Assembly: GCA_018815245.1 (NCBI GenBank)
Contig: JAHIXK010000010.1
Location: forward strand, 310,001 to 374,000
Length of the DNA: 64,000 bases
Origin: Gammaproteobacteria bacterium
Lineage (GTDB): Bacteria > Pseudomonadota > Gammaproteobacteria > Burkholderiales > Burkholderiaceae_B
Direction of reading: 5' to 3'
Made by a program: the position numbers and the translations under genes. The notes below the pieces were generated by a model, which did not search any database, was not told the origin of the DNA, and worked only from the letters and a program-made list of their open reading frames with translations. Positions 4,771 through 63,686 of the stretch are shown piece after piece (the stretch's first letter is position 1; the number at the start of each line of letters is the position of its first letter).

Positions 4771-6726
4771 ATGTTTTATCCCGAAGAATTTGATGTCATT
4801 GTAATAGGTGGCGGGCATGCCGGTACCGAGGCCGCGCTTGCTGCTGCCCGTGCCGGAAGCAAAACACTGCTTCTTACGCACAACATTGAAACGCTTGGGC
4901 AAATGTCATGCAACCCTTCAATTGGCGGTATTGGCAAAGGTCACTTGGTTAAAGAAGTGGATGCCCTGGGCGGTGCCATGGCCATTGCCACGGATGAAGC
5001 AGGTATTCAATTCAGAATCCTCAATGGCTCAAAAGGCCCTGCTGTGCGCGCAACCCGCGCCCAAGCCGATCGAGTGTTATACCGGCAGGCCATTCGCACA
5101 CGCTTGGAAAATCAACCCAATCTCAGCTTGTTTCAGCAGTCTGTTGAAGACCTGTTGCTTGACGGTGATCGGGTGTGCGGAGCTGTTACGCAAGTAGGTT
5201 TGAAGTTCAGGGCCAAAGCAGTGGTGCTTACAGCGGGTACATTCCTGAATGGCAAAATTCATGTGGGTTTGCAAAATTATTCGGCGGGCCGGGCAGGGGA
5301 TCCTCCTTCGATTGGTTTGGGCATGCGCCTGCAAGAAATGAAATTGCCGCAAGGGCGCTTGAAAACAGGTACGCCCCCCCGCATTGATGGCCGCAGCATT
5401 GATTTCTCAGTGATGCAAGAGCAGCCTGGCGATCTGGATCCCGTGCCTGTATTCTCCTATTTGGGTAACAAGGCCATGCACCCAAGGCAGTTGCCTTGCT
5501 GGATCACACACACCAATCAGAAAACTCACGATATTATTCGCGGTGGTTTGGACAGAAGCCCCATGTACACTGGCGTGATCGAGGGCATCGGCCCACGCTA
5601 TTGCCCGTCGATTGAGGACAAGATTCATCGTTTCGCCGACAAAGAATCGCATCAGATTTTTCTTGAGCCAGAAGGCTTGAGTACCAACGAATATTATCCA
5701 AACGGCGTGTCAACATCTTTGCCGTTTGATGTGCAATTGAACTTGCTGCACTCCATCAAGGGTTTGGAAAATGCATACATCATGCGCCCGGGCTATGCGA
5801 TTGAGTACGATTACTTTGATCCGCGCGCACTGAAAACGACGCTGGAAACGAAGGCTATTGAGGGCTTGTTCTTTGCTGGTCAAATCAATGGCACCACAGG
5901 TTACGAAGAGGCGGCTGCCCAGGGTTTGCTGGCCGGTGTGAATGCAGCACTGATGGTGCAAGGCAAAGACCAATGGACGCCACGCCGCGACGAGGCCTAT
6001 CTGGGTGTGCTTGTGGATGATTTGACCAGCAAGGGTGTGGCGGAGCCTTACCGCATGTTTACCAGCCGTGCTGAGTACCGCTTAAGCCTGCGAGAAGACA
6101 ATGCAGACCAGCGCCTTACCCCGATAGGGCGAAAATTGGGTTTGGTCGATGATATTCGTTGGCAAGCTTTCTCTGAAAAGCGAGAGGCCGTGGAGCTGGA
6201 AAAGCAGCGGCTACGTTCCACGTGGATCAATCCGAAAATTGTGGCGCAGGCTGAAGCCGAGCGAGTGTTGCACAAAGGCATTGACCGTGAATACAACCTG
6301 TACGATCTTCTGAAGCGCCCGGATGTGAGTTATCAAGACTTGAGTACCTTGAGCAAAGAAAGCGGCGAGCTGGCTCTGCTCGAGCCCTTGCAGCAAAGCG
6401 ATCTGATTTCCCAGCTTGAAATTGAAGTCAAGTACGCGGGCTATGTGCTCCGCCAACAGGCCGAAGTAGAGCGTGGCGCAGGCAATGAATCCACCCGCCT
6501 GCCCGCCGATTTCGATTACAGCGGGGTAAACGGGCTAAGCAAGGAAGTGCAACAAAAGCTGAATATGCACAAGCCAGAAACCATTGGGCAGGCTGGGCGC
6601 ATTCAGGGCGTTACACCTGCGGCCATTTCCCTATTGTTGGTGCACCTGAAAAAGCGTGACTTGCTGAATCGAAGCGCTGGCGCGGCGACAAAATCCGCTG
6701 ACGGAACATCGGAGCAGGTTGCTTGA
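4771..6726 (+). CDS. mnmG: tRNA uridine-5-carboxymethylaminomethyl(34) synthesis enzyme MnmG
   Basis: A 651-residue FAD enzyme which, with MnmE, installs the carboxymethylaminomethyl group on U34 of tRNAs reading split codon boxes. The N-terminal dinucleotide motif [17 protein letters not shown] (from about residue 11), the [14 protein letters not shown] loop, the two conserved cysteine regions and the [12 protein letters not shown] segment are all present, followed by the helical C-terminal domain that contacts MnmE and tRNA. The ATG has AGGAG at ideal distance. The stop overlaps the rsmG start (TTGA), indicating translational coupling. MnmE is not in the window. Confidence 0.97.
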
Positions 6727-7400
6727 ATTCAGCGCACCGAAAACCACGGTCTGAAACCTTGGGGTCTTCAGACCAAACCCTGCTGAATGAAGGCATTGCA
6801 CAATTGCGTTTGGGCCTGAGCAACGAGCAGCATGATCAGCTATTCAAATACGGGCAGCTTATCCAGAAATGGAACCGGGTGTACAACCTGACCGCCATTC
6901 GCAATAACCGCGAATTGGTCACGCATCATTTGCTCGATTCTTTGGCAGTATTGCCGGAAATTTCATTTGCGCTTCAATCCATGGCGGGCCCTAAAATTTT
7001 GGATGTCGGCGCGGGTGCGGGTCTGCCTGGCCTGGTGTTGGCAATTGCCCAGCCCAACTGGCAGGTCACGCTGATCGACACCGTTCAAAAAAAGGCGGCC
7101 TTCATGCAGCAGGCCATTGCAAGCCTGGGTCTGAAGAATGCGCAGGCGGTCCATGGCCGGGTAGAGGGATATCAGCCCAATACTCTGTTCGACCTGATTT
7201 GCTCTCGCGCTTTTTCAAGCATCGACAATTTCATCGCGCTTGGCCAACACCTGCTGTCCGAAAACGGCCAGTTTGCGGCCTTGAAGGGCAGGGTAGAGGT
7301 TGACAATGAAGTGCCGGCAGGTTGGCGAATTGAGGCCTTGCACCCAATTCAAGTGCCATTCCTGGACGAGGCAAGGCACTTGTTCCTGATTAAACGCTAG
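6723..7400 (+). CDS. rsmG: 16S rRNA (guanine(527)-N7)-methyltransferase RsmG
   Basis: A 225-residue SAM-dependent methyltransferase (GidB) that modifies G527 in the 530 loop of 16S rRNA; loss gives low-level streptomycin resistance in other bacteria. Motif I is visible as [18 protein letters not shown], followed by the [13 protein letters not shown] acidic strand and the [10 protein letters not shown] catalytic-region motif. The TTG start at 6723 overlaps the mnmG stop by 4 bp and has GGAG-type pairing upstream. The first 20 residues are less conserved than the rest, so a slightly later start is possible. Confidence 0.95.
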
Positions 7401-7430
7401 AATCGAAACATTCATTCACAGGACAAGAAG

Positions 7431-8207
7431 ATGGCGAAAGTGTTCTGCATTGCCAACCAGAAAGGTGGCGTGGGAAAAACCACCACTGCGGTGAATCTGG
7501 CTGCTGGTTTGGCAATGGCCAAGCAACGCGTGTTGTTGGTTGATCTGGATCCCCAAGGCAATGCCACCATGGGTTGCGGCATTGACAAGCGCAGCGTCAA
7601 GCACACGGTGTACCAGGTGTTGGTTGGCATGGTGGGTGTGGCAGAAGCCACCGTGCGCGCTGAAGGCGATTTCGACGTGTTGGCGGCCAACCGTGAACTG
7701 GCCGGTGCCGAAGTGGAAATGGTTGAATTCGAAGACCGCGAGATCAAGCTGCGAGAGGCTATTTCCGAGGTGGACAGCCAGTACGACTTCATTCTTATTG
7801 ATTGTCCGCCAGCGCTTTCCCTGCTCACCCTGAATGCCCTGTGCTGTGCCAATGGCGTGGTTATTCCCATGCAATGCGAATACTATGCCCTGGAAGGTTT
7901 GAGCGATCTCGTGAACACCATCAAGCAGGTGTGCAAGAACTTGAACCCGAACTTGACCATCATTGGCTTGTTGCGGGTGATGTACGACCCGCGCATGACC
8001 CTGGCGCAGCAGGTGTCGGCCCAGCTTGAGAAGCATTTCGGCAACAAAGTGTTTAAAACAATCATTCCACGCAATGTCCGCTTGGCCGAAGCACCCAGTT
8101 ATGGTGTGCCGGGCGTGCTGTTCGACAAGTCCAGCAAGGGTGCAAAGGCCTATCTCGATTTCGCCAATGAAATGGTCGAACGTTTGGGCTTGCCGATTGC
8201 GGCATAA
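7431..8207 (+). CDS. parA: Chromosome partitioning ATPase ParA (Soj)
   Basis: A 258-residue deviant-Walker ATPase that binds nucleoid DNA as an ATP dimer and moves ParB-parS complexes. The signature KGGVGKTTT lies at residues 11-19, Walker A' at LLVDLDPQGN, and Walker B at FILIDCPPALS. It is the short chromosomal type without the N-terminal HTH of plasmid ParAs. It lies 30 bp after rsmG and 36 bp before parB, with its parS sites about 3 kb upstream. Confidence 0.97.
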   Translation: MAKVFCIANQKGGVGKTTTAVNLAAGLAMAKQRVLLVDLDPQGNATMGCGIDKRSVKHTVYQVLVGMVGVAEATVRAEGDFDVLAANRELAGAEVEMVEFEDREIKLREAISEVDSQYDFILIDCPPALSLLTLNALCCANGVVIPMQCEYYALEGLSDLVNTIKQVCKNLNPNLTIIGLLRVMYDPRMTLAQQVSAQLEKHFGNKVFKTIIPRNVRLAEAPSYGVPGVLFDKSSKGAKAYLDFANEMVERLGLPIAA

Positions 8208-8243
8208 ACAATAGCAGCCTAACCAAATTCAGCAGAAGAAAAT

Positions 8244-9125
8244 ATGAACGCGATTAAACGTACAAAAGGCCTGGGAAGGGGCTTGGAAGCACTATTGGGG
8301 CCTTCTGGCGACGACGTCAACAAAGACATGGGCGAGCAGGTCATGACCCTGCCGCTGGGCAAGCTGCAGGCCGGTAAATACCAGCCACGTTCCCGCATGG
8401 ACGAAAGCTCACTGATGGAACTGGCGGAGTCGATTAAAAGCCAGGGCATCATGCAGCCCATTCTGGTTCGCCCCATCGGCTCAGGAAAGTACGAAATTAT
8501 TGCGGGTGAGCGTCGTTTCCGCGCATCAAAAATAGCAGGTCTGGAAGAAGTCCCTGTGTTGGTGCGTGCGGTTCCCGATGAGTCCGCCCTGGCCATGGCG
8601 CTGATCGAAAACATTCAGCGTGAAGACCTGAACCCCCTGGAAGAAGCGCTGGGCGTACAACGTTTGATTCGTGAATTCAATTTGACCCACGAAGATGCCG
8701 CACGCGCCATTGGTCGATCCCGCAGTGCAACAAGCAATATGCTGCGCCTGTTGAACCTGGCCGAGCCGGTGCAAACCATGCTGTTGGCTGGGGATGTAGA
8801 AATGGGCCATGCCCGTGCCTTGCTGGCTTTGACTGCGGCTGAGCAAATTGCGTGCGCCAATGAAGTGGTGAACAAACGTTTGTCCGTGCGTGAAACCGAG
8901 AAACTGGTGAATGACTGGGCCAGCAACAATGATCGGGTGGCCACCAAACCCAGGCAAACTGCCGATGTGCGCCGTCTCGAAGAAGGCTTGGCAGACTGGT
9001 TGGCCAGCGCGGTTCAATTAAAAGCCAATCCAAATGGCAAAGGCAGTGTTACTATTAAATTTAACAGTTTGGACGAATTGGACGGTGTGCTGGCGCGCAT
9101 CGGCTTTCCCAAAGAAGAGCTTTAG
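8244..9125 (+). CDS. parB: Chromosome partitioning protein ParB (Spo0J)
   Basis: A 293-residue CTP-dependent DNA clamp that loads at parS. The N-terminal Lys/Arg-rich ParA-stimulating segment (KRTKGLGRGLEALLG) is followed by the CTP-binding ParB domain with GERRFRASK (box II, about residues 88-96) and ENIQREDLNPLEEA, then the HTH (EDAARAIGRSRSATSNML) and a C-terminal dimerisation domain. It is the last gene before the atp operon promoter. Confidence 0.97.
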   Translation: MNAIKRTKGLGRGLEALLGPSGDDVNKDMGEQVMTLPLGKLQAGKYQPRSRMDESSLMELAESIKSQGIMQPILVRPIGSGKYEIIAGERRFRASKIAGLEEVPVLVRAVPDESALAMALIENIQREDLNPLEEALGVQRLIREFNLTHEDAARAIGRSRSATSNMLRLLNLAEPVQTMLLAGDVEMGHARALLALTAAEQIACANEVVNKRLSVRETEKLVNDWASNNDRVATKPRQTADVRRLEEGLADWLASAVQLKANPNGKGSVTIKFNSLDELDGVLARIGFPKEEL

Positions 9126-9165
9126 CCTTTGCACCAAATCGGTGTGAAAAATAAGCCGTTTTCGT

Positions 9166-9195
9166 TTGACGAAGGGCCTTGCAAACCCCTATAAT
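9166..9195 (+). promoter_or_regulatory. Sigma70 promoter of the atp operon
   Basis: TTGACG (9166-9171), an 18-bp spacer and a perfect TATAAT (9190-9195), 53 bp upstream of the chosen atpI start. It is one of the best promoter matches in the window. No strong terminator separates it from parB. Confidence 0.8.
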
Positions 9196-9247
9196 CTGCC
9201 GGTTTGTCAAAAACACGTGCGCCTTACGGGAAAATACGTACCCGACA

Positions 9248-9607
9248 ATGGTGAAATGTGGCGGTGCAGCAAAAATGTGGAAAATTGTCGGACTCCAATG
9301 GGTCGTCGGGGTGGCTACGTGCCTCCTCATGTGGTTGGTGTCCCCTGTCCACGCGCAGTCTGCTGCATGGGGTTTCGTAGCCGTTGCGTTGCCGAGCACA
9401 TTGTTCGCCGCACGGTTGGCCTTGGGAAGTAAAACTCCCATGGGCGGAACTTTTGTGTTTTTGGCCGGAGAATTCCTGAAGGTTGGCGCAACAATCGCAA
9501 TCATGTTTGTAGCGAGTCAAGTTGACCCGAACATTGTTTGGTGGTCCTTGATCCTCACAGCGATCGTCACCCTCAAAAGCTATTTTTTGGCATTTTTCTT
9601 GAGATAA
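9248..9607 (+). CDS. atpI: ATP synthase subunit I
   Basis: A 119-residue membrane protein with four hydrophobic segments, first gene of the atp operon; AtpI assists c-ring assembly and possibly Mg2+ uptake and is not part of the final complex. The open frame extends to 9179, but that region contains the promoter downstream box and has no membrane character, so the ATG at 9248 is preferred (a second ATG at 9275 is also possible). Conserved features are the Gly/Pro loop [19 protein letters not shown] and the C-terminal [17 protein letters not shown]-like helix. The stop is 2 bp before atpB. Confidence 0.85.
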
Positions 9608-9609
9608 GT

Positions 9610-10470
9610 ATGGCATCTTCACCGAATGGGCAAACGCCCTCAGAGTACATCGTCCATCACTTGCAGCATTTCGCAACCGATAAACAAAAATTTATCGTCG
9701 ATTTCTCAGTGATCAACCTTGACACGATGTTTTTTTCCATCCTGTCAGGCCTTCTCGTTATTTTATTTCTGCGCAAAGCAGCGTCCAAAGCCACTTCTGG
9801 CGTACCCAACCGTTTTCAGGGTTTCGTCGAAATGTTGGTTGAGATGGTTGAAAACCAGTCAAAATCCATCGTGCACGGCGACCGCAGCTTCATTGCTCCA
9901 CTGGCATTGACGGTGTTTCTGTGGATCATCGTCATGAATACCTTTGACTTGATCCCCGTGGACCTGATTCCCATGGCTTGGGGCCATTTGATGTATAACC
10001 TTGGCTTTGCAGCCAGCCCCGGCGACCCCTATATGCGCGTGGTGGCCACGGCTGACCTGAATGGCGCTTTGGGTATGTCATTGGGTGTGTTGTGCCTGAT
10101 GCTTTATTACTCAGTGAAAATCAAAGGTGCCGGCGGCTTTGTGCACGAATTGTTCTGCGCACCTTTTGGTGCCAATCCACTGCTGTGGATCCCGAACTTT
10201 GTATTGAACCTGATTGAGTTTGCTGCGAAAACCGTGTCCTTGGGCATGCGACTGTTCGGCAACATGTATGCAGGCGAATTGGTGTTCATGCTGATTGCTT
10301 TGCTGGGTGGCGCTGCTGCGTTGTCCATGGGTGGTGCGTTTGCCTTCTTGGGCCATGTGTTGGCCGGAACAATCTGGGCAATTTTCCACATTCTGATTGT
10401 GTTGCTTCAAGGCTTTATTTTCATGATGTTGACCTTGATCTACATTGGCCAGGCACATCAGAGCCACTGA
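9610..10470 (+). CDS. atpB: ATP synthase Fo subunit a
   Basis: A 286-residue subunit that forms the proton half-channels against the c-ring. The essential arginine lies in the helix [19 protein letters not shown], and the glutamate and histidine region follows. The open frame runs upstream through atpI, but the ATG at 9610 gives [20 protein letters not shown], the usual betaproteobacterial N-terminus. The gene is tightly linked to atpI. The following 59-nt spacer is extremely T-rich (see the atpE leader). Confidence 0.97.
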
Positions 10471-10772
<302 letters not shown>

Positions 10773-10799
10773 TTTACAGCCACTTCCTTCGAACAACAC

Positions 10800-10834
10800 C
10801 GCACGAATGTTTTAAGTCCAATTCGTGCGTTTTA
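10800..10834 (+). other. Intercistronic hairpin after atpE
   Basis: CGCACGAAT (10800-10808) pairs perfectly with ATTCGTGCG (10821-10829) across a 12-nt loop, followed by TTTT. It could end part of the transcription after the highly expressed atpE or protect the upstream mRNA from 3' decay. The T-run is short and atpF must still be transcribed, so full termination is unlikely. Confidence 0.6.
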
Positions 10835-10847
10835 GAGGAAACATGCC

Positions 10848-11318
10848 GTGAACTTAAACGCAACGCTGTTTGCTCAGCTCGTCGTTTTCTTCATCTTGGC
10901 GGTCTTTACGATGAAATTCGTATGGCCCCCGTTGATCAAGAGCATCGATGAGCGTGCAAAGAAAATCGCAGACGGCCTGGCCGCTGCAGAACGTGGTAAG
11001 CAGGCTTTGGCAGAAGCCGGTCGTAAAGCTGAACAGGAGCTGGCTGTTAGCCGTTCTGAAAATCAGCAACGTCTGGCCGAAGCAGAAAAGCGTGCCCAGC
11101 AGATTATTGAAGAGGCAAAACAACAAGCCGAAGTTGAGCGCAAGCGAATTCTTGCGCAGGCTGAAGCGGAAGCTGCAAACGAAGCACAACGTGCCCGTGA
11201 CCAGTTGCGCGATCAGTTGGCAACACTCGTGGTGAAAGGCGCAGAACAAATCCTGAAGAAGGAAGTGAACGCCCAGGCCCACGCAGATTTGCTGAATCAA
11301 CTGAAAGCGGAACTGTAA
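10848..11318 (+). CDS. atpF: ATP synthase Fo subunit b
   Basis: A 156-residue peripheral-stalk subunit: one N-terminal membrane helix (about residues 5-27) followed by a long, highly charged helix (Glu/Lys/Ala/Gln-rich) that dimerises and holds F1. The start is the GTG at 10848: AGAGGAA lies about 8 nt upstream, while the ATG at 10843 is only 3 nt from it and opens a three-codon frame (ATG CCG TGA) that overlaps the GTG. The resulting [10 protein letters not shown] is the usual N-terminus in the group. Confidence 0.96.
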
Positions 11319-11342
11319 GCCTAAAGCTTAAGGAAACACAAC

Positions 11343-11876
11343 ATGGTCGAACTATCCACCATCGCCCGTCCTTACGCTGAAGCAGCGTTTGATGTTGCCA
11401 AAACATCAAACCTGAATCAGTGGAGTGATTGGCTACAGTCGTGGTCGGCAGTCGCAAGCAACGAAGACATCAAATTGCTGGTCAGCAACCCTAAGTTGAC
11501 TGACGAGCAGGTGTTGAAAGTGTTTGTTGAACTGACCAAGACACCGGCGGAAGCGCAAGCAACGAATTTCTTGAGTGCGCTTGTGGAAAATGGCCGTTTG
11601 CTGGCCTTGCCAGAAATCGCTCGACAGTTCGAAGAATTGAAGAACAGCCATGAAGGTTCTGCTGACGCGATTATCGCTTCTGCGTTCCCCATGACTGACG
11701 CTGAAGTTCAAAACGTACGTGGCGCATTGGAAAAGAAGTTTGGTTCCAGGCTGAAGGTAACAGTTCAGGTGGATGAATCGCTGATTGGTGGCGTTTGCGT
11801 CACCGTGGGCGACCAGATTTTGGATAGTTCGGTGCGCGGCAAACTCAACGCGATGAAGGCGGCTTTAACAGCCTAA
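11343..11876 (+). CDS. atpH: ATP synthase F1 subunit delta
   Basis: A 177-residue subunit linking the top of F1 to the b stalk. The N-terminal helical bundle begins [15 protein letters not shown], the family hallmark, and the C-terminal signature [20 protein letters not shown] is complete. It sits 24 bp after atpF and 32 bp before atpA with AAGGAAA upstream of its ATG. Confidence 0.96.
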
Positions 11877-11908
11877 CTTGGCCCTCAAACGTAATTGGAG
11901 CAATCAAT

Positions 11909-13450
11909 ATGCAGATTAATCCCTCTGAGATCAGTGAACTGATCAAGAGCCGGATCGAAGGCCTCGGATCATCGGCCGACATCCGGACACAAGGTACTGT
12001 AGTGTCCGTGAGCGACGGTATTTGCCGCGTTCATGGTTTGTCAGATGTTATGCAAGGTGAAATGCTGGAATTCCCAGGCAACACCTTTGGTTTGGCGCTC
12101 AACCTGGAACGTGATTCCGTGGGTGTTGTTATTTTGGGTTCATACGAGCACATTTCTGAAGGCGACATGGTCAAGTGTACCGGCCGCATTCTGGAAGTGC
12201 CTGTTGGTCCGGAACTGCGTGGTCGCGTGGTGAACGCATTGGGTGTGCCTATCGATGGCAAGGGCCCAGTGAACGCCAAGATGACTGACGTGATTGAAAA
12301 AGTGGCGCCTGGTGTTATTGAACGCAAGTCAGTAGACCAGCCACTGCAAACCGGCGTGAAAGCGATTGATGCCATGGTTCCCGTTGGCCGTGGCCAGCGT
12401 GAATTGATTATTGGCGACCGCCAGACTGGTAAAACAGCAGTAGCGATCGACGCGATCATCAACCAGAAAGGCACCGGCGTAACCTGCGTGTACGTGGCAG
12501 TGGGTCAAAAAGCCTCCTCCATCGTGAACGTGGTTCGCAAGCTTGAAGAGTTCGGCGCGCTGGAATACACCATTGTTGTGGTGGCTTCTGCCTCTGAGTC
12601 AGCCGCCATGCAATACCTGGCGCCTTACTCAGGTTGCACCATGGGCGAATATTTCCGCGATCGCGGTGAAGACGCCCTGATCGTGTATGACGACCTGTCC
12701 AAGCAAGCTGTGGCCTACCGTCAAATTTCCCTGTTGCTGCGTCGCCCACCCGGCCGCGAAGCTTACCCAGGTGACGTGTTCTATCTACACAGCCGTTTGC
12801 TCGAGCGCGCATCACGCGTGAACGCCGATTACGTTGAAAAATTCACCAAAGGTGAAGTGAAAGGCAAAACCGGTTCATTGACCGCACTGCCAATCATTGA
12901 AACCCAGGCGGGTGACGTAACCGCGTTCGTTCCAACCAACGTAATTTCGATTACTGACGGTCAAATCTTCCTGGAAACCGACTTGTTCAACGCCGGTATT
13001 CGTCCAGCGATCAACGCGGGTATCTCCGTGTCTCGCGTGGGTGGTGCAGCGCAAACCAAGGTGGTCAAGAAGCTGTCAGGTGGTATCCGTACCGACTTGG
13101 CCCAGTACCGTGAATTGGCTGCGTTTGCGCAGTTTGCTTCTGATTTGGACGAAGCAACTCGCCGCCAGCTGGAACGTGGTCGCCGTGTGGTTGAATTGTT
13201 GAAGCAGCCCCAGTACGCCCCGTTGAAAACATGGGAAATGGCACTGGCCCTGTTCGCAATCAACAATGGTTATCTGGATGATGTTGACGTCGCGAACGTT
13301 CTTCCTTTTGAGGTTTCTCTGCGTCAATTCATGCAGACAAGTCACAAGGACCTGATCGATCGCATCGAGCAGACTTACGAGTTGTCGAAAGACGACGAGC
13401 CAAAGCTGCACGAGGCCGTGAAGTCATTCAAGAAAACTGGCGCGTATTAA
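11909..13450 (+). CDS. atpA: ATP synthase F1 subunit alpha
   Basis: A 513-residue non-catalytic nucleotide-binding subunit. The P-loop GDRQTGKTA lies near residue 170, the arginine-finger region follows in the VSRVGGAAQ stretch, and the C-terminal helical domain is complete. Length and motifs match the family exactly. Two small hairpins follow in the spacer to atpG. Confidence 0.98.
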
Positions 13451-59389: not shown

Positions 59390-59465
59390 GCGGCTGTAGC
59401 TCAGTGGATAGAGTATTGGCCTCCGAAGCCAAGGGTCGTGGGTTCGATCCCCGCCAGCCGCGCCA
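59390..59465 (+). tRNA. tRNA-Arg (anticodon CCG)
   Basis: A 76-nt cloverleaf including encoded CCA. Acceptor GCGGCTG (59390-59396) pairs with CAGCCGC (59455-59461); the anticodon stem TTGGC/GCCAA encloses CTCCGAA with anticodon CCG at 59423-59425, reading CGG (Arg). The T-arm GGTTCGATCC is normal. It marks the boundary between backbone and accessory DNA; the 3' half is a usual integrase attachment site. Confidence 0.97.
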
Positions 59466-59556
59466 TTGAATTTTCTCTCGAGAGGCCCGTCATTTGGGCG
59501 TTTCCGTCGGAAACCAGTTTTCTCTATCCAAAAATTTCTTGTTTCGCGCAGCATGT
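59466..59556. other. Spacer after the tRNA
   Basis: No gene. A CTCTCGAGAG palindrome (about 59472-59481) and a GCCC-N7-GGGC stem follow; the latter may be a weak tRNA terminator. A minus-strand open frame over this region and the tRNA is a chance reading. Confidence 0.4.
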
Positions 59557-59601
59557 TTGTGCCCATCTTGTGCCCCAAAATTTTGGGCACGATGGGCACA
59601 A
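59557..59601. repeat. Nested palindrome with TGTGCCCAT words
   Basis: Outer 11-bp arms TTGTGCCCATC (59557-59567) and GATGGGCACAA (59591-59601); inner arms GTGCCC (59570-59575) and GGGCAC (59585-59590) around AAAATTTT. The left side has 2 extra T residues. It looks like recombinase or regulator binding sites rather than a terminator. Confidence 0.75.
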
Positions 59602-59616
59602 GAGTATCGGTTTGAA

Positions 59617-59638
59617 TATGGGCACAAGTGTGCCCATA
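59617..59638. repeat. Second TGTGCCCAT palindrome
   Basis: TATGGGCACA (59617-59626), AG, TGTGCCCATA (59629-59638): perfect 10-bp arms, the same word as the preceding nested palindrome, which ends 15 bp earlier. The 11-mer ATGGGCACAAG occurs in both elements. Confidence 0.8.
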
Positions 59639-59812
59639 ATATTCGCTGGTTTTGATTGAGTAACCGCAATTCGGCCAAAACGGGCACTCACTGATCTACT
59701 CGTGTGAGGCCGCTTTTGGGTTGTGGCAGTCCTTCATGACGGAGGGCAGATGGTCTGTTGATTATTGATTACATCTTTGTCGACCAAATTCAAAGTATTA
59801 TTCTCTATCGTC
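59639..59812. other. Spacer upstream of the defence-like operon
   Basis: No credible gene; a 66-codon frame at 59758-59958 begins with TTG and has no family resemblance or ribosome-binding site. No convincing sigma70 promoter is visible. Confidence 0.4.
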
Positions 59813-59831: not shown

Positions 59832-59957
59832 CGCCGAATTAGCCGATTCAATCGATATTTCTAACCGGGTGATATATTGCTGGATTCTCACCATCTCTCA
59901 TGGTTGTGTTCGGACAAATCAAGATGAGGGACAATATGGCTTAGGAGGTGTGCGGTA

Positions 59958-61208
59958 GTGGAAGGATTCACCAATAGCGAGGAGCACATCAGTCGGGAGG
60001 CTGGTGACAAGACGAAGGGATTTCGTTTTCAAAAGCTACGTGCCGCAATTCGTTTTCTCCAACGAGTACAGGAGAACAGCGATGGGCAGGTCCTTTGCGC
60101 CATGGAGCTTTTGGAGGATTCTGTACTGTACGACGGGAATAGCGAACAACTCATCAGCGGCGAAGAGAACAAGTACTACAGTTCACGCATCAGCTTTAAT
60201 TCTGCGGCGCTGAAAAACACGTTAGTAGCCTTTCTAGACCTGTACTTCGCATTCATGCGCTCAGGGGCACTAAAGCTTGGAATCTATGCCTCGGCAGAAA
60301 TCGCCCAGGAGCGCATATCCGCCGAGTTTCGTCAAGGCCTAGGTTTAGAACCAACGCAAAAACATTACGACATCCTCAAACTACTAACTCTGGGTGAAAC
60401 CCTAGACGATGAGGAACAGTTGGTCGCCTTCGCGATAGTTAAGGCTGAATATTCCGCACAGTATCCAGACACTTCAAAAGGCTATCGAAATTTACTCGAT
60501 CAAATGACATTGGAGGAGTTTTCTTCTTTTATTAGCGCGATTGACTGGACGCTGACAAATGAATCTAATGAAACCCTCGAGGCGACAGCGCTTCAACAAG
60601 TTAGAACCTGTAAGTTTTTCAGCCATCGCCACGTTGGACTGGAGCAGTTCATATTATCCGCATTGCTTGACGAGCTTGAAAAGAGATCAGGGGCAGGTGG
60701 CGTCACAGACCGGCTATTAAGTACAGATTCCCTCAAAAACATTTTTAATGAGATTCTTTTAGGCCCCACTGAACAGGAGCGCACTGATGACCCCGCTTCT
60801 GACAATTGGTCTGAAGTTGACAACGAGGACTTTAGAAATCTCTCTGAAAAAATCAAAGCTGTTTGTCCTAGTTTCAATACTAAGCTACTCAGTGCTCTCG
60901 CCCGAAGTTGCAGTTTAGCGAGAAGCGTAGAGGCTGAAGGACAAAGGGAAATGAAAGCCCTTCTTCGCAGAATCCTTGATGCATGTGAGGTATATCTTCT
61001 CACTAACTATCCACCCTCATCGGCACTTACCGAGAAGCAGATATTAGATCTGATTGATGAGTTGGTGAAGGTCGCAGAGAAGCATGTTGCAAGCTTGAGA
61101 AGCCGTTATAAGTATGCGTTACGTGACGATCATTCTATTAAGGGTGCAGTGCTTACACTTTTTGATGACTGCTATTTAGCATTTGATGAGGTCAATCTTG
61201 GAGAATAG
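59958..61208 (+). CDS. Putative nuclease component of an ABC-3C-like defence system
   Basis: A 416-residue soluble protein, first gene of an overlapping trio. The N-terminal 120 residues resemble Cap4/DUF4297-type nuclease domains: GDKTKGFRFQKLRAAIRFL, then an acidic strand ELLEDSVLYD (E50, E53, D54) and ENK (E70-N71-K72), which could be a PD-(D/E)xK active site; this match is by eye. The remaining 290 residues are helical with no known motif and probably contact the ATPase or sense a trigger. The GTG start has AGGAGG 9 nt upstream. Base composition is more A+T-rich than the left 59 kb. Confidence 0.75.
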   Translation: MEGFTNSEEHISREAGDKTKGFRFQKLRAAIRFLQRVQENSDGQVLCAMELLEDSVLYDGNSEQLISGEENKYYSSRISFNSAALKNTLVAFLDLYFAFMRSGALKLGIYASAEIAQERISAEFRQGLGLEPTQKHYDILKLLTLGETLDDEEQLVAFAIVKAEYSAQYPDTSKGYRNLLDQMTLEEFSSFISAIDWTLTNESNETLEATALQQVRTCKFFSHRHVGLEQFILSALLDELEKRSGAGGVTDRLLSTDSLKNIFNEILLGPTEQERTDDPASDNWSEVDNEDFRNLSEKIKAVCPSFNTKLLSALARSCSLARSVEAEGQREMKALLRRILDACEVYLLTNYPPSSALTEKQILDLIDELVKVAEKHVASLRSRYKYALRDDHSIKGAVLTLFDDCYLAFDEVNLGE

Positions 61209-61764
61209 CCATGAACAATTCGGGGCCGGCGAGCCAAAGAGACCGCACAAGAGTAAGCGTCCCTTGTTCTTCATCTCTGGTGAAGACTTGTACTTTGTCG
61301 CCTACTCAATCCTCTTAGTTCTTGAACACCTCGGAGGTAGTGCAAAGCGCGTGAAAGACCATAGAAAGATTGCTTACTTGATTCAGTTTCTTGGTGACTC
61401 TCGGCTTATAGATTTATTGGAACGGACCCAGGGAATCGGTGTTGCGAATGCCACTGATCGAGAACTTCTTTTTACGAGCTATACCAACGCGGAACTCCAT
61501 AAGCGTGAGGTATACAAGATAATATTTTCCATGGAACGACGCGGATTTCTGCATATGCAGCGTACTGACAGACCCGAGATTATCGACATTTCCCTCATCA
61601 GTGACCGTGTCCCACAAGGCTTCTTTGCAAGCGACGCGTATGCCGATGAGAGGGCCAACGCCGAAAGTTTGAAGAAGCTTTTTCCACGGTTATCTGCCTT
61701 GACGTTCGATAGTTTATTAGAGCGACTATACAAAGATAGAGGTGTTCGTGTATGGGCTTCCTGA
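61186..61764 (+). CDS. Middle component (probable winged helix) of the ABC-3C-like system
   Basis: A 192-residue protein resembling the small middle components of ABC-three-component systems: a helical core SGEDLYFVAYSILLVLEHL, then FSMERRGFLHMQRTDRPEIIDISLI, which reads like a winged-helix wing. The start is uncertain. In-frame ATG 61186 lies inside the upstream gene without a ribosome-binding site; an ATG at 61211 has GGAGA upstream but is in another frame that closes after 35 codons. The last 13 bp overlap the ATPase gene. Confidence 0.72.
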   Translation: MRSILENSHEQFGAGEPKRPHKSKRPLFFISGEDLYFVAYSILLVLEHLGGSAKRVKDHRKIAYLIQFLGDSRLIDLLERTQGIGVANATDRELLFTSYTNAELHKREVYKIIFSMERRGFLHMQRTDRPEIIDISLISDRVPQGFFASDAYADERANAESLKKLFPRLSALTFDSLLERLYKDRGVRVWAS

Positions 61765-63686
61765 GTATTAAGAAAGTCGAATACATCGGCGATAAGTATT
61801 ATTTCGAGTCTCCGACGTTCGATGACGGGGTGTCTATCATCGAAGGACCAAATGGGACGGGGAAGTCTACCTTTTTCAACCTAATTTATTACGGGCTTGG
61901 AGGTAGAGTCGAGGAGTTCGACCCCACTTCTACAGAGGTGCATGTCGAAATAGTGAATGACTCAAACAACTTTGTTCGTCTCGTAATTGGGATAGATAAT
62001 GAGCTGTTTACCATCAGTCGGCGTCTGCGTGACAACAACATCTCCGTAATCAGGGCTATGACGGAGGCTGACGGAGTACCCGCAGAACTGCAGGCTAACA
62101 CCTATCCAATAGTTCGACGCGAAGATGCAAAGACTTTCTCTGATTGGTTACTTGAGAAATTGCACATTCCTGTAGTTGACATCTTCCAAGGCGGGAAGCA
62201 ATTTAAGCTCAACTTTACTGACCTTGCTCGGCTGATTTATCACAATCAGAGCCCAGACCCTAACGGTATTTATAAGCCAGCAGACGCTACCAACTTTGTT
62301 TCTGATTCGTTAGAGATTCGTCGTGCCATCTTCCAGATTCTGATCGGAAAAACCCTGATGGAGCTCTATGCGGCAATCGGCTCGCAGAAGAACGCGGAGC
62401 GAGATTTCATGGCAGCAAAGTCCGTGCGTCAGGAATATGAAGATATCGTTAACCATTTGCTTCGTGCCAGCGGAATAAATGAAATATCTAATATCAAAGC
62501 TTTGAATGAACGAATCGAGGATCTTGAAGCTCAGATTGAATCACTGTTAGCCTCGCGAAAGGCATTTTCGCGTGGTCAGCTTGGAAGTGCACAAGCACAA
62601 CGAACTCTTGATGCAGAACTACGGCAGGTCCATGAGCTGATGATTCAACAGCGAACAATTGACGAAAATCGAGAGCAGTTAATTGATGAAGCGGGTCGCC
62701 TTGTCGATGTTGAGCGGGCGCTAGGGGCTGATATTCAAAGAATTAATAAGGTCATATATGCACATGGCCAGCTCAACCTATTCTCACGCGACACTTGCCC
62801 CTATTGTTTGAACGATGTCTTACGCACTCCCGGTCATTGCGTTTGCGGGCATGCCGTGGAAGAGCAGGATTACCAGCGATTCTTCTATAGTCCAGCCGAG
62901 TATTTGGAGATTCTAAAAGGAAAGACCAAAGCACTCGAAACCTTGAAGCTAGCGATACGTGGTATCCGAGAGGAGCATACATATTGGAACGAGGCCCGAG
63001 AGAGGGTTTTGCACGATATTTCCACAAAGCGGGCGCGAATAGAGAAAGCCGGCGCCAGCCCATATCAAGTGGAGAAGGCGATGGAGGAACTCGACGATAA
63101 ACTTCTGGAGTTGCGTGAAAAACTCGCAAAGTGCCAGGAGGCATTTAGGCTAGAGAGTAAGCTTGGCGATCTTTTGAAGCGGCAAAATGACAAAAAAGCT
63201 CTGTTTGAAAGGTTAAAACTTGAAGTCCAGCGACTCGATAGCGAATCAAAGGTCGAATTGCAGAAGCAGATCAATGCTTTTGACCGGACGTATCATGAAT
63301 TCATGACCACCGTGGTCGTTGATTGCAGAAGTGCGGCCATCGACCGCCAAACTTATTTACCGATCATTAACAACGGCCAGTATCGAGAGCATAGCGCCAA
63401 GGTTCCAAAGCGTTTCCTCTATTACTTAGATTTGCTACAGTTGGCGCTACTTTCAGATATTCCCTTCCCACGCCTCCTCTTGGTCGACACTCCTGAGACA
63501 GCCGGTATTGACCTTGATGGGCTTGTAAAGATGCTGCGGCAGATTGATGCGCTTGAGAATCCAAAGAGCAAGGCATTTCAAATTTTGTTCTCGACAGGAA
63601 ATGGAAAATACCCGCCAGAGTTTGCATCGAAAGTTGTTCTGAGGTTATCGAAGGAGCAACGCCTACTGGTTCGTCGAGATTTGTAG
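61752..63686 (+). CDS. Rad50/SMC-like ABC ATPase of the ABC-3C-like system
   Basis: A 644-residue ATPase. Walker A GPNGTGKS at residues 32-39; a central coiled coil (about 205-345 and 375-500) interrupted by a four-cysteine zinc motif CPYC...CVCG (C349, C352, C363, C365) at the hairpin tip, recalling but not identical to the Rad50 zinc hook; and a C-terminal lobe with Walker B LLLVDTPE (D579, E582). The latter form (DTP in place of DE) is common in conflict-system ATPases. The ATG overlaps the upstream gene by 13 bp and has AGAGGT upstream. The three genes form one translational unit. Confidence 0.88.
   Translation: MGFLSIKKVEYIGDKYYFESPTFDDGVSIIEGPNGTGKSTFFNLIYYGLGGRVEEFDPTSTEVHVEIVNDSNNFVRLVIGIDNELFTISRRLRDNNISVIRAMTEADGVPAELQANTYPIVRREDAKTFSDWLLEKLHIPVVDIFQGGKQFKLNFTDLARLIYHNQSPDPNGIYKPADATNFVSDSLEIRRAIFQILIGKTLMELYAAIGSQKNAERDFMAAKSVRQEYEDIVNHLLRASGINEISNIKALNERIEDLEAQIESLLASRKAFSRGQLGSAQAQRTLDAELRQVHELMIQQRTIDENREQLIDEAGRLVDVERALGADIQRINKVIYAHGQLNLFSRDTCPYCLNDVLRTPGHCVCGHAVEEQDYQRFFYSPAEYLEILKGKTKALETLKLAIRGIREEHTYWNEARERVLHDISTKRARIEKAGASPYQVEKAMEELDDKLLELREKLAKCQEAFRLESKLGDLLKRQNDKKALFERLKLEVQRLDSESKVELQKQINAFDRTYHEFMTTVVVDCRSAAIDRQTYLPIINNGQYREHSAKVPKRFLYYLDLLQLALLSDIPFPRLLLVDTPETAGIDLDGLVKMLRQIDALENPKSKAFQILFSTGNGKYPPEFASKVVLRLSKEQRLLVRRDL

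Follow-up and report, generated by a model that had tools for sequence, protein, structure and literature searches.

What do three overlapping genes encode that lie next to a tRNA-Arg gene at positions 59958-63686 of a 64,000-nucleotide (nt) stretch of DNA from a Gammaproteobacteria bacterium (contig JAHIXK010000010.1; the whole stretch is called the window below), and how did they come to be there? An earlier reading made from the letters alone (the sequence-only reading) had taken them, by gene set and order, for a probable member of the ATP-binding cassette (ABC)-three-component (ABC-3C) class. The three genes and the tRNA were both recovered, by open reading frame (ORF) analysis and ARAGORN, respectively, with all three ORFs overlapping on the + strand and free of internal stops. 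We conclude, with a probability of roughly 0.93, that the trio is a type II (three-gene) Lamassu immune operon of the ABC-3C/DdmABC-like kind; this reading is carried by the gene identities and order, fold kinship, motifs and mobile contexts described below. The ABC-3C assignment holds in gene set and order, type II Lamassu being the better name, as it includes ABC-3C; both ABC-3C and DdmABC are counted inside the Lamassu superfamily (PMC10586767). What is new is a further member of this well-described superfamily that is remote by sequence from the solved systems.

Identity of the three proteins

Two of the three proteins were named by PADLOC, which matched gene 3 as LmuB (PDLC03859, E=3.6e-60, residues 5-633) and gene 1 as LmuA (PDLC03848, E=7.2e-14, residues 11-369) and returned no match for gene 2, LmuC. 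The PADLOC LmuA model was matched by five of the seven members of the LmuA alignment, the window protein among them. LmuB is also the sole member of the trio named by Pfam (AAA_23, E=1.5e-11); it weakly matches Rad50/SMC models and structures, and its matches to SMC/Rad50 coil regions suggest that it contains coiled coils. Gene 3 has a Walker A motif (GPNGTGKS, at residue 32) as well as four cysteines arranged as CPYC-x11-CVC (at residue 349) and is indeed the ABC ATPase with a zinc motif that had been proposed. The four-cysteine motif is present in LmuB of 13 of 14 loci, i.e., the window and 13 tabulated relatives (L002, L003, L006-L014, L019, and L021), the remaining one, L006, being truncated by its contig end. 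The trio also has the makeup of type II Lamassu: LmuB, with 644 amino acids (aa), corresponds to the Rad50/SMC-like ABC ATPase of ~650 aa, the 192-aa LmuC to the small component between A and B, and LmuA, whose N-terminus is enzymatic and variable in this type, is Cap4-like in the window.

Structures of LmuA and LmuC were modeled with AlphaFold from input alignments of ten proteins each, and the models were compared to solved structures with Foldseek. For the LmuA model, with a mean predicted local distance difference test score (pLDDT) of 75.4, the top 12 of 76 matches were all chains of solved Lamassu entries (E 1.1e-5 to 2.9e-3, probability 1.00), 8 of them titled LmuA and 4 from LmuABC/LmuACB complexes; LmuA chains with DNA were among the best matches. 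Behind them ranked a HerA-DUF assembly, then Cap4 receptors and a structure of DUF4297, so that the Cap4/DUF4297-like character given to gene 1 by the sequence-only reading is borne out. The C-terminal part of LmuA, which to that reading looked undescribed, has no Pfam family; however, because the Foldseek alignments to Lamassu chains cover 414-458 columns, this part is better called unnamed in Pfam than of an unknown kind. The best two matches of the LmuC model (mean pLDDT 84.4) were 9ny5_C from an LmuABC complex and 9hqu_D from an LmuACB complex, with a probability of 1.00 and template modeling scores (TM-scores) of 0.54-0.62; these chains have 171 and 164 residues, i.e., they are LmuC-sized. 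MarR-type winged-helix regulators came after the Lamassu chains. A winged-helix nature of gene 2 had been proposed, and the LmuC chains speak for it, but the support is weaker than for the other genes: the winged-helix family HTH_46 was matched in two of the seven sequences in the alignment of LmuC, neither of them from the window (best E=0.00056), and in one of four viral-contig LmuC proteins (L014), at 18.4 bits and thus below the cut-off of 29.3.

Several observations weigh against this assignment. Neither LmuA nor LmuC of the window belongs to a Pfam or NCBIfam family above cut-off. The LmuA model has a predicted TM-score of 0.52, its pLDDT drops below 50 at residues 51-76, a stretch that contains D54 and K72, and its Foldseek TM-scores to Lamassu chains are 0.28-0.38 with root mean square deviations of 14-19; because the former are low and the latter high, the domain arrangement of LmuA is unreliably modeled. 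The Foldseek E values of LmuC are weak, 0.02-0.03 for the best two, with none of 733 matches reaching 0.001. No Lamassu chain was matched when PDB sequences were searched with phmmer and with profiles, the presence of such chains in that set being unchecked, and kinship to the tested Lamassu systems is therefore remote. Finally, a locus with a weak LmuB match (L022; 25% over ~140 residues) has no LmuA or LmuC match, and it was not used. Two other candidates were rejected as chance: DUF5783 for LmuA (Pfam E=0.06, 13.9 bits compared to a cut-off of 32) and 4eqq, the lone match in one PDB profile search (E=0.0088, 32 positions).

Compared to known systems, the trio is closest in plan to the type II LmuACB operons of Salmonella enterica (PDB 9hqu, 9hqx, and 9hr5) and Vibrio cholerae (9uxl, DdmABC), which have the same three genes in the order A-C-B; a Cap4-like LmuA, a small LmuC, and an SMC-like LmuB are common to both, with fold matches for LmuA and LmuC. 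DdmB carries DUF6521 (PMC12409362), unlike the window LmuC, which is without a Pfam match. The ABC-3C class likewise combines an ABC ATPase, a middle component, and an effector, but two of the window's components are without Pfam families. Cap4 proteins of cyclic oligonucleotide-based antiphage signaling systems (6vm5, 6vm6, and 7yib) and a DUF4297 structure (8zgi) match LmuA at E values of 0.1-0.8, after Lamassu, whereas the trio contains no cyclase gene, genes past the contig end not being visible. The statement of the sequence-only reading that few members had been tested does not stand, given the solved structures and the phage and plasmid assays described in reviews (PMC10586767 and PMC12409362).

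Relatives, genomic contexts, and alternative explanations

The order lmuA-lmuC-lmuB on one strand is kept in all 13 tabulated relatives, so the trio is conserved as a unit in other genomes, and it also occurs, with broken frames, in genome G1129, which is outside that table. Because relatives of all three genes share this order in distant bacteria, the trio does not consist of chance ORFs. The relatives comprise a Sideroxydans metagenome-assembled genome (MAG; L002), whose proteins are 78-86% identical to those of the window with frames kept, a gammaproteobacterial MAG with the trio beside tRNA-Ser (L003), genome G340 (L006), plasmid records of Aeromonas, Peribacillus, and Proteus (L007-L009), and viral contigs (L010-L014, L019, and L021). 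In L003, a tRNA-Ser (7299-7388) lies upstream of the trio, LmuA (8001-9057) is in two frames, and a weakly recombinase-like ORF (11540-12301; Zn_ribbon_recom, E=0.01, below cut-off) lies downstream. G436 was not counted separately, since it is the same DNA as L003.

The effector LmuA is rare: with the window's own genome counted, it turned up in 2 of the 399 genomes sampled from the order, 2 of the 369 from the class, and 3 of the 398 from the phylum, one of the last matches being weak. Within the genus, the LmuB profile was matched in 2 of 16 genomes, and the second of these matches, in G770, was rejected as LmuB because it is DndD-like. G790 (E=5.8e-4) was also rejected, as tblastn of the three window proteins gave no match in its locus. 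Searches of phage records with LmuA or LmuB (tblastn) and of Escherichia coli genomes (blastn) found nothing, nor did the first viral-contig scan; alignment-based viral-contig scans gave 5 and 8 loci, five entries (L015-L018 and L020) being the same contigs as L010-L014.

Many of these loci lie on mobile elements. L007 was typed as a conjugative plasmid, Tn7-like transposition genes lie upstream in L008, and L009 carries TraG, TraH, and eexS; pR997, the source of L009, is presumably an SXT/R391-type element. Among the viral contigs, L010 has a lambda O-like replication gene and L019 portal and capsid genes. The trios of L011, L012, and L013 are flanked by a phrog_91 gene (gpA-type, nicking at origin) on one side and a phrog_68 gene (portal) on the other, which places them in the known defense hotspot of P2-like phages, located between gpA and gpQ (PMC9122126). 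While these three related trios occupy a phage hotspot, the window copy instead sits in a chromosomal tRNA island.

This distribution and context lead us to reject a housekeeping role, in which the trio would be a DNA repair or chromosome maintenance operon of the SbcCD/MRN or MukBEF kind, composed of an ABC ATPase, its winged-helix partner, and a nuclease in an accessory role. Such an operon would account for the AAA_23 match and the weak Rad50/SMC matches of LmuB, as well as for a cohesin-head chain at rank 20 of the LmuC Foldseek list, but it fits poorly with the patchy occurrence of LmuA and LmuB, with carriage of the trio by plasmids and phage contigs, and with best structural matches that are Lamassu subunits; we give it hardly any chance. 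Very unlikely, too, is that LmuA keeps a Cap4-like fold while having an activity other than that of a nuclease. The active site of Cap4-type nucleases is of the PD-(D/E)xK type, and the candidate residues for it in LmuA (E50, D54, and K72) lie partly in the poorly modeled stretch noted above; moreover, the residue two before K72 varies, being E70 in the window, G in L008, and Q in L021. Against this, E50, D54, and K72 are, like G21 and Q25, at least 90% conserved in ten sequences in which R13 is invariant, which we take to be the pattern expected of a Cap4-like nuclease, and DNA-containing LmuA chains are among the best structural matches.

It might also be asked whether the operon is a Lamassu system that no longer functions and is kept as a remnant of the island. 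Relatives are often broken: LmuA is in two frames in L003, as are both LmuA and LmuB in G1129, and LmuB of pR997 has 494 aa; L006 is also incomplete, being cut by its contig end. In addition, the integrase of the sister islands described below has no close relative in the window's own genome, only a 21% match elsewhere, on contig C2; an assembly gap may hide one. The three window genes are, however, full length and stop-free, with a ribosome-binding site, Walker A motif, zinc motif, and effector residues in place, and the Sideroxydans relative keeps its frames, so that loss of function appears very unlikely.

Walker B, gene overlap, and proposed mechanism

In LmuB, the Walker B motif reads LLLV-D579 followed by TPE. 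The residue after the aspartate is threonine in all 12 complete C-termini (11 DTPE and 1 DTPK, in L021), a count made on the 14 loci less L006 and L009, in which the C-terminal part is missing, with the register read from the motif rather than from a structure. In LmuB proteins the catalytic glutamate is generally replaced by glutamine (PMC10586767); in this register, the window LmuB would also be without it, with threonine, not the reported glutamine, where the glutamate is expected.

In 12 of the 14 loci, lmuC and lmuB overlap by exactly 13 nt, compared to 10 nt in L009 and 8 nt in L021; this is a raw tally without chance control, and the 12 loci are not 12 independent cases, because several (L007 and L010-L013) are close kin. 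A GAGG-like word lies inside lmuC directly upstream of the lmuB start in several loci. The overlap links the codon of the C-terminal tryptophan of LmuC to the start of LmuB. Among the papers listed by a literature search on this overlap, no title addressed it in Lamassu. The overlap of lmuA and lmuC is 23 nt in the window.

In relatives, LmuB is described as sensing aberrant DNA (ends, hairpins, and stalled forks), and freed LmuA as forming a homotetramer whose Cap4 domain cuts DNA, usually with cell death (PMC10586767, PMC12409362, and PMC12904381). For the window trio, we infer a similar course of sequestration, trigger, release, tetramer formation, and cell death. A Rad50-like dimer of LmuB, held with LmuC, would keep the LmuA nuclease inactive until LmuB meets aberrant DNA ends or structures from a replicating phage or plasmid; LmuA would then be released, assemble into the active Cap4-type nuclease, and cut DNA, which would halt the invader but sacrifice the cell. 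Mobile elements carry the operon as cargo. Tentatively, and with more doubt than confidence, we propose that the trio belongs to a remote Lamassu branch (Pseudomonadota, Bacillota, phages, and plasmids) in which LmuB, with threonine (DTPE) in place of the catalytic glutamate, might serve as a DNA-binding switch of the one-shot kind. In this branch, the fixed 13-nt overlap might couple translation of lmuC and lmuB, so that the nuclease would never be present without its clamp.

An integrative island at tRNA-Arg

The sequence-only reading had seen signs of a defense island in the neighboring tRNA and in a shift of base composition. The shift is present, the G+C content of the trio being 0.467 compared to 0.543 for positions 1-59389, whose 1-kb bins span 0.48-0.59; the genes to the left of the trio and the tRNA are ordinary chromosomal ones, with the families DUF748/AsmA, LysR, and TauE (Pfam). 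Since the contig ends 46 bases beyond the window, a defense island cannot be judged from the window alone, and it is the comparison with sister genomes that supports the idea. This covered 12 of 15 same-genus relatives, i.e., all except G764, G777, and G772 (480-base stretch). Profiles were used to read the genes of G767 and G770, and of one ORF each in G774, G776, and G003; those of G773 and G766 were read through their identity to G767, and ORF lists served for the others.

An integrative island at tRNA-Arg carries the trio as cargo in its tRNA-proximal part (Table 1): a flanking repeat and, by comparison with G771, an empty site were both found, contigs C1 and C13 being physically unlinked. 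The 214 bases that follow the window tRNA are common to genomes G767 and G773, and their repeated TGTGCCC/GGGCACA words are putative arm-type integrase sites. In G767 and G773, islands of ~39 kb occupy this tRNA, and their right end, too, is closed by the 27-bp repeat; C13 of the window's assembly (G000) matches that right end at positions 4880-12458, with 91.5% identity. Being at least 99.8% identical to each other, these two islands count as one witness. From 12459 on, C13 is 80% identical over 385 bp to DNA of G771 that starts ~113 bases after its tRNA repeat, and G771 is the only one of the relatives compared with a long match to C13 beyond the repeat. Because of the repeat copy, the sister-island matches, and the G771 match, one island can be traced over two unlinked contigs, with its left end in the window and its right end very probably on C13.

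Table 1. Coordinates of the operon and of the island features (window positions unless a contig is named)
Feature	Position	Strand	Remarks
lmuA	59958..61208	+	416 aa, GTG start; Cap4-like nuclease effector (PADLOC, Foldseek, alignment)
AGGAGG ribosome-binding site of lmuA	59943..59948	+	9 nt upstream of GTG; read from sequence
lmuC	61186..61764	+	192 aa; middle component, winged-helix-like
lmuC end/lmuB start overlap	61752..61764	+	13 nt; length kept in 12/14 loci
lmuB	61752..63686	+	644 aa; Rad50/SMC-like ABC ATPase, four-Cys zinc motif
tRNA-Arg(CCG)	59390..59465	+	integration target of island; ARAGORN
attL core	59441..59467	+	27 bp; tRNA 3' end plus 2 bases
Island left end	59466..59679	+	common to islands of G767 and G773; repeated TGTGCCC/GGGCACA words
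Proposed attR	G000:C13:12432-12458		second 27-bp copy, 1 mismatch; repeat search

For lmuC, ATG 61186, which matches the Sideroxydans relative, is the best choice of start; the mechanical ORF list had TTG 61183. Promoter- and terminator-like sites were in no excess over shuffled sequence.

Other genes occupy the stretch after this tRNA-Arg in related genomes. The tRNA-proximal stretch of G767, G773, and G766 carries the same 652-aa OLD/AriA/GajA-like ATPase (L040 833-2791 in G767), and a Lit-like peptidase lies further on in G767 (L040 4650-5594), identical in G773; none was seen in G766, the contig of which ends early. G770 has genes for a DndD-like ATPase and a Dnd-associated protein 4-like protein ~5 kb after the same tRNA-Arg (L055 1387-3902), and integrases were found in the stretch after tRNA-Arg in G774 and G776. 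No OLD- or Dnd-like gene was recognized in the ORF lists of G769, G771, G775, G765, G768, and G003, which were read without defense profiles.

At the right end of the proposed island, on the - strand of C13 (L039), lie genes for a 307-aa (4870-5793), an 1811-aa (5794-11229), and a DUF3800 protein (11372-12175). The 1811-aa and 307-aa proteins have no match in Pfam, PADLOC, or NCBIfam, and the former has none among PDB sequences either. The block recurs in the two sister islands (91.5% identity) and in G776 (66-75%), and it is possibly an undescribed system. An IS66-family transposase (L039 2256-3950) also lies within the proposed island and may have contributed to the break in the assembly.

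Altogether, the analysis replaces a guess by a firm family assignment of three proteins, of which two have no Pfam or NCBIfam name, and it provides a testable case of a Lamassu system not linked to the solved ones by the sequence searches made here. It further shows that the system is mobile cargo that can be exchanged: the same tRNA-Arg stretch holds Lamassu in this genome, an OLD-like gene in three sister genomes, two of which carry a Lit-like gene as well, and Dnd-like genes in one other.

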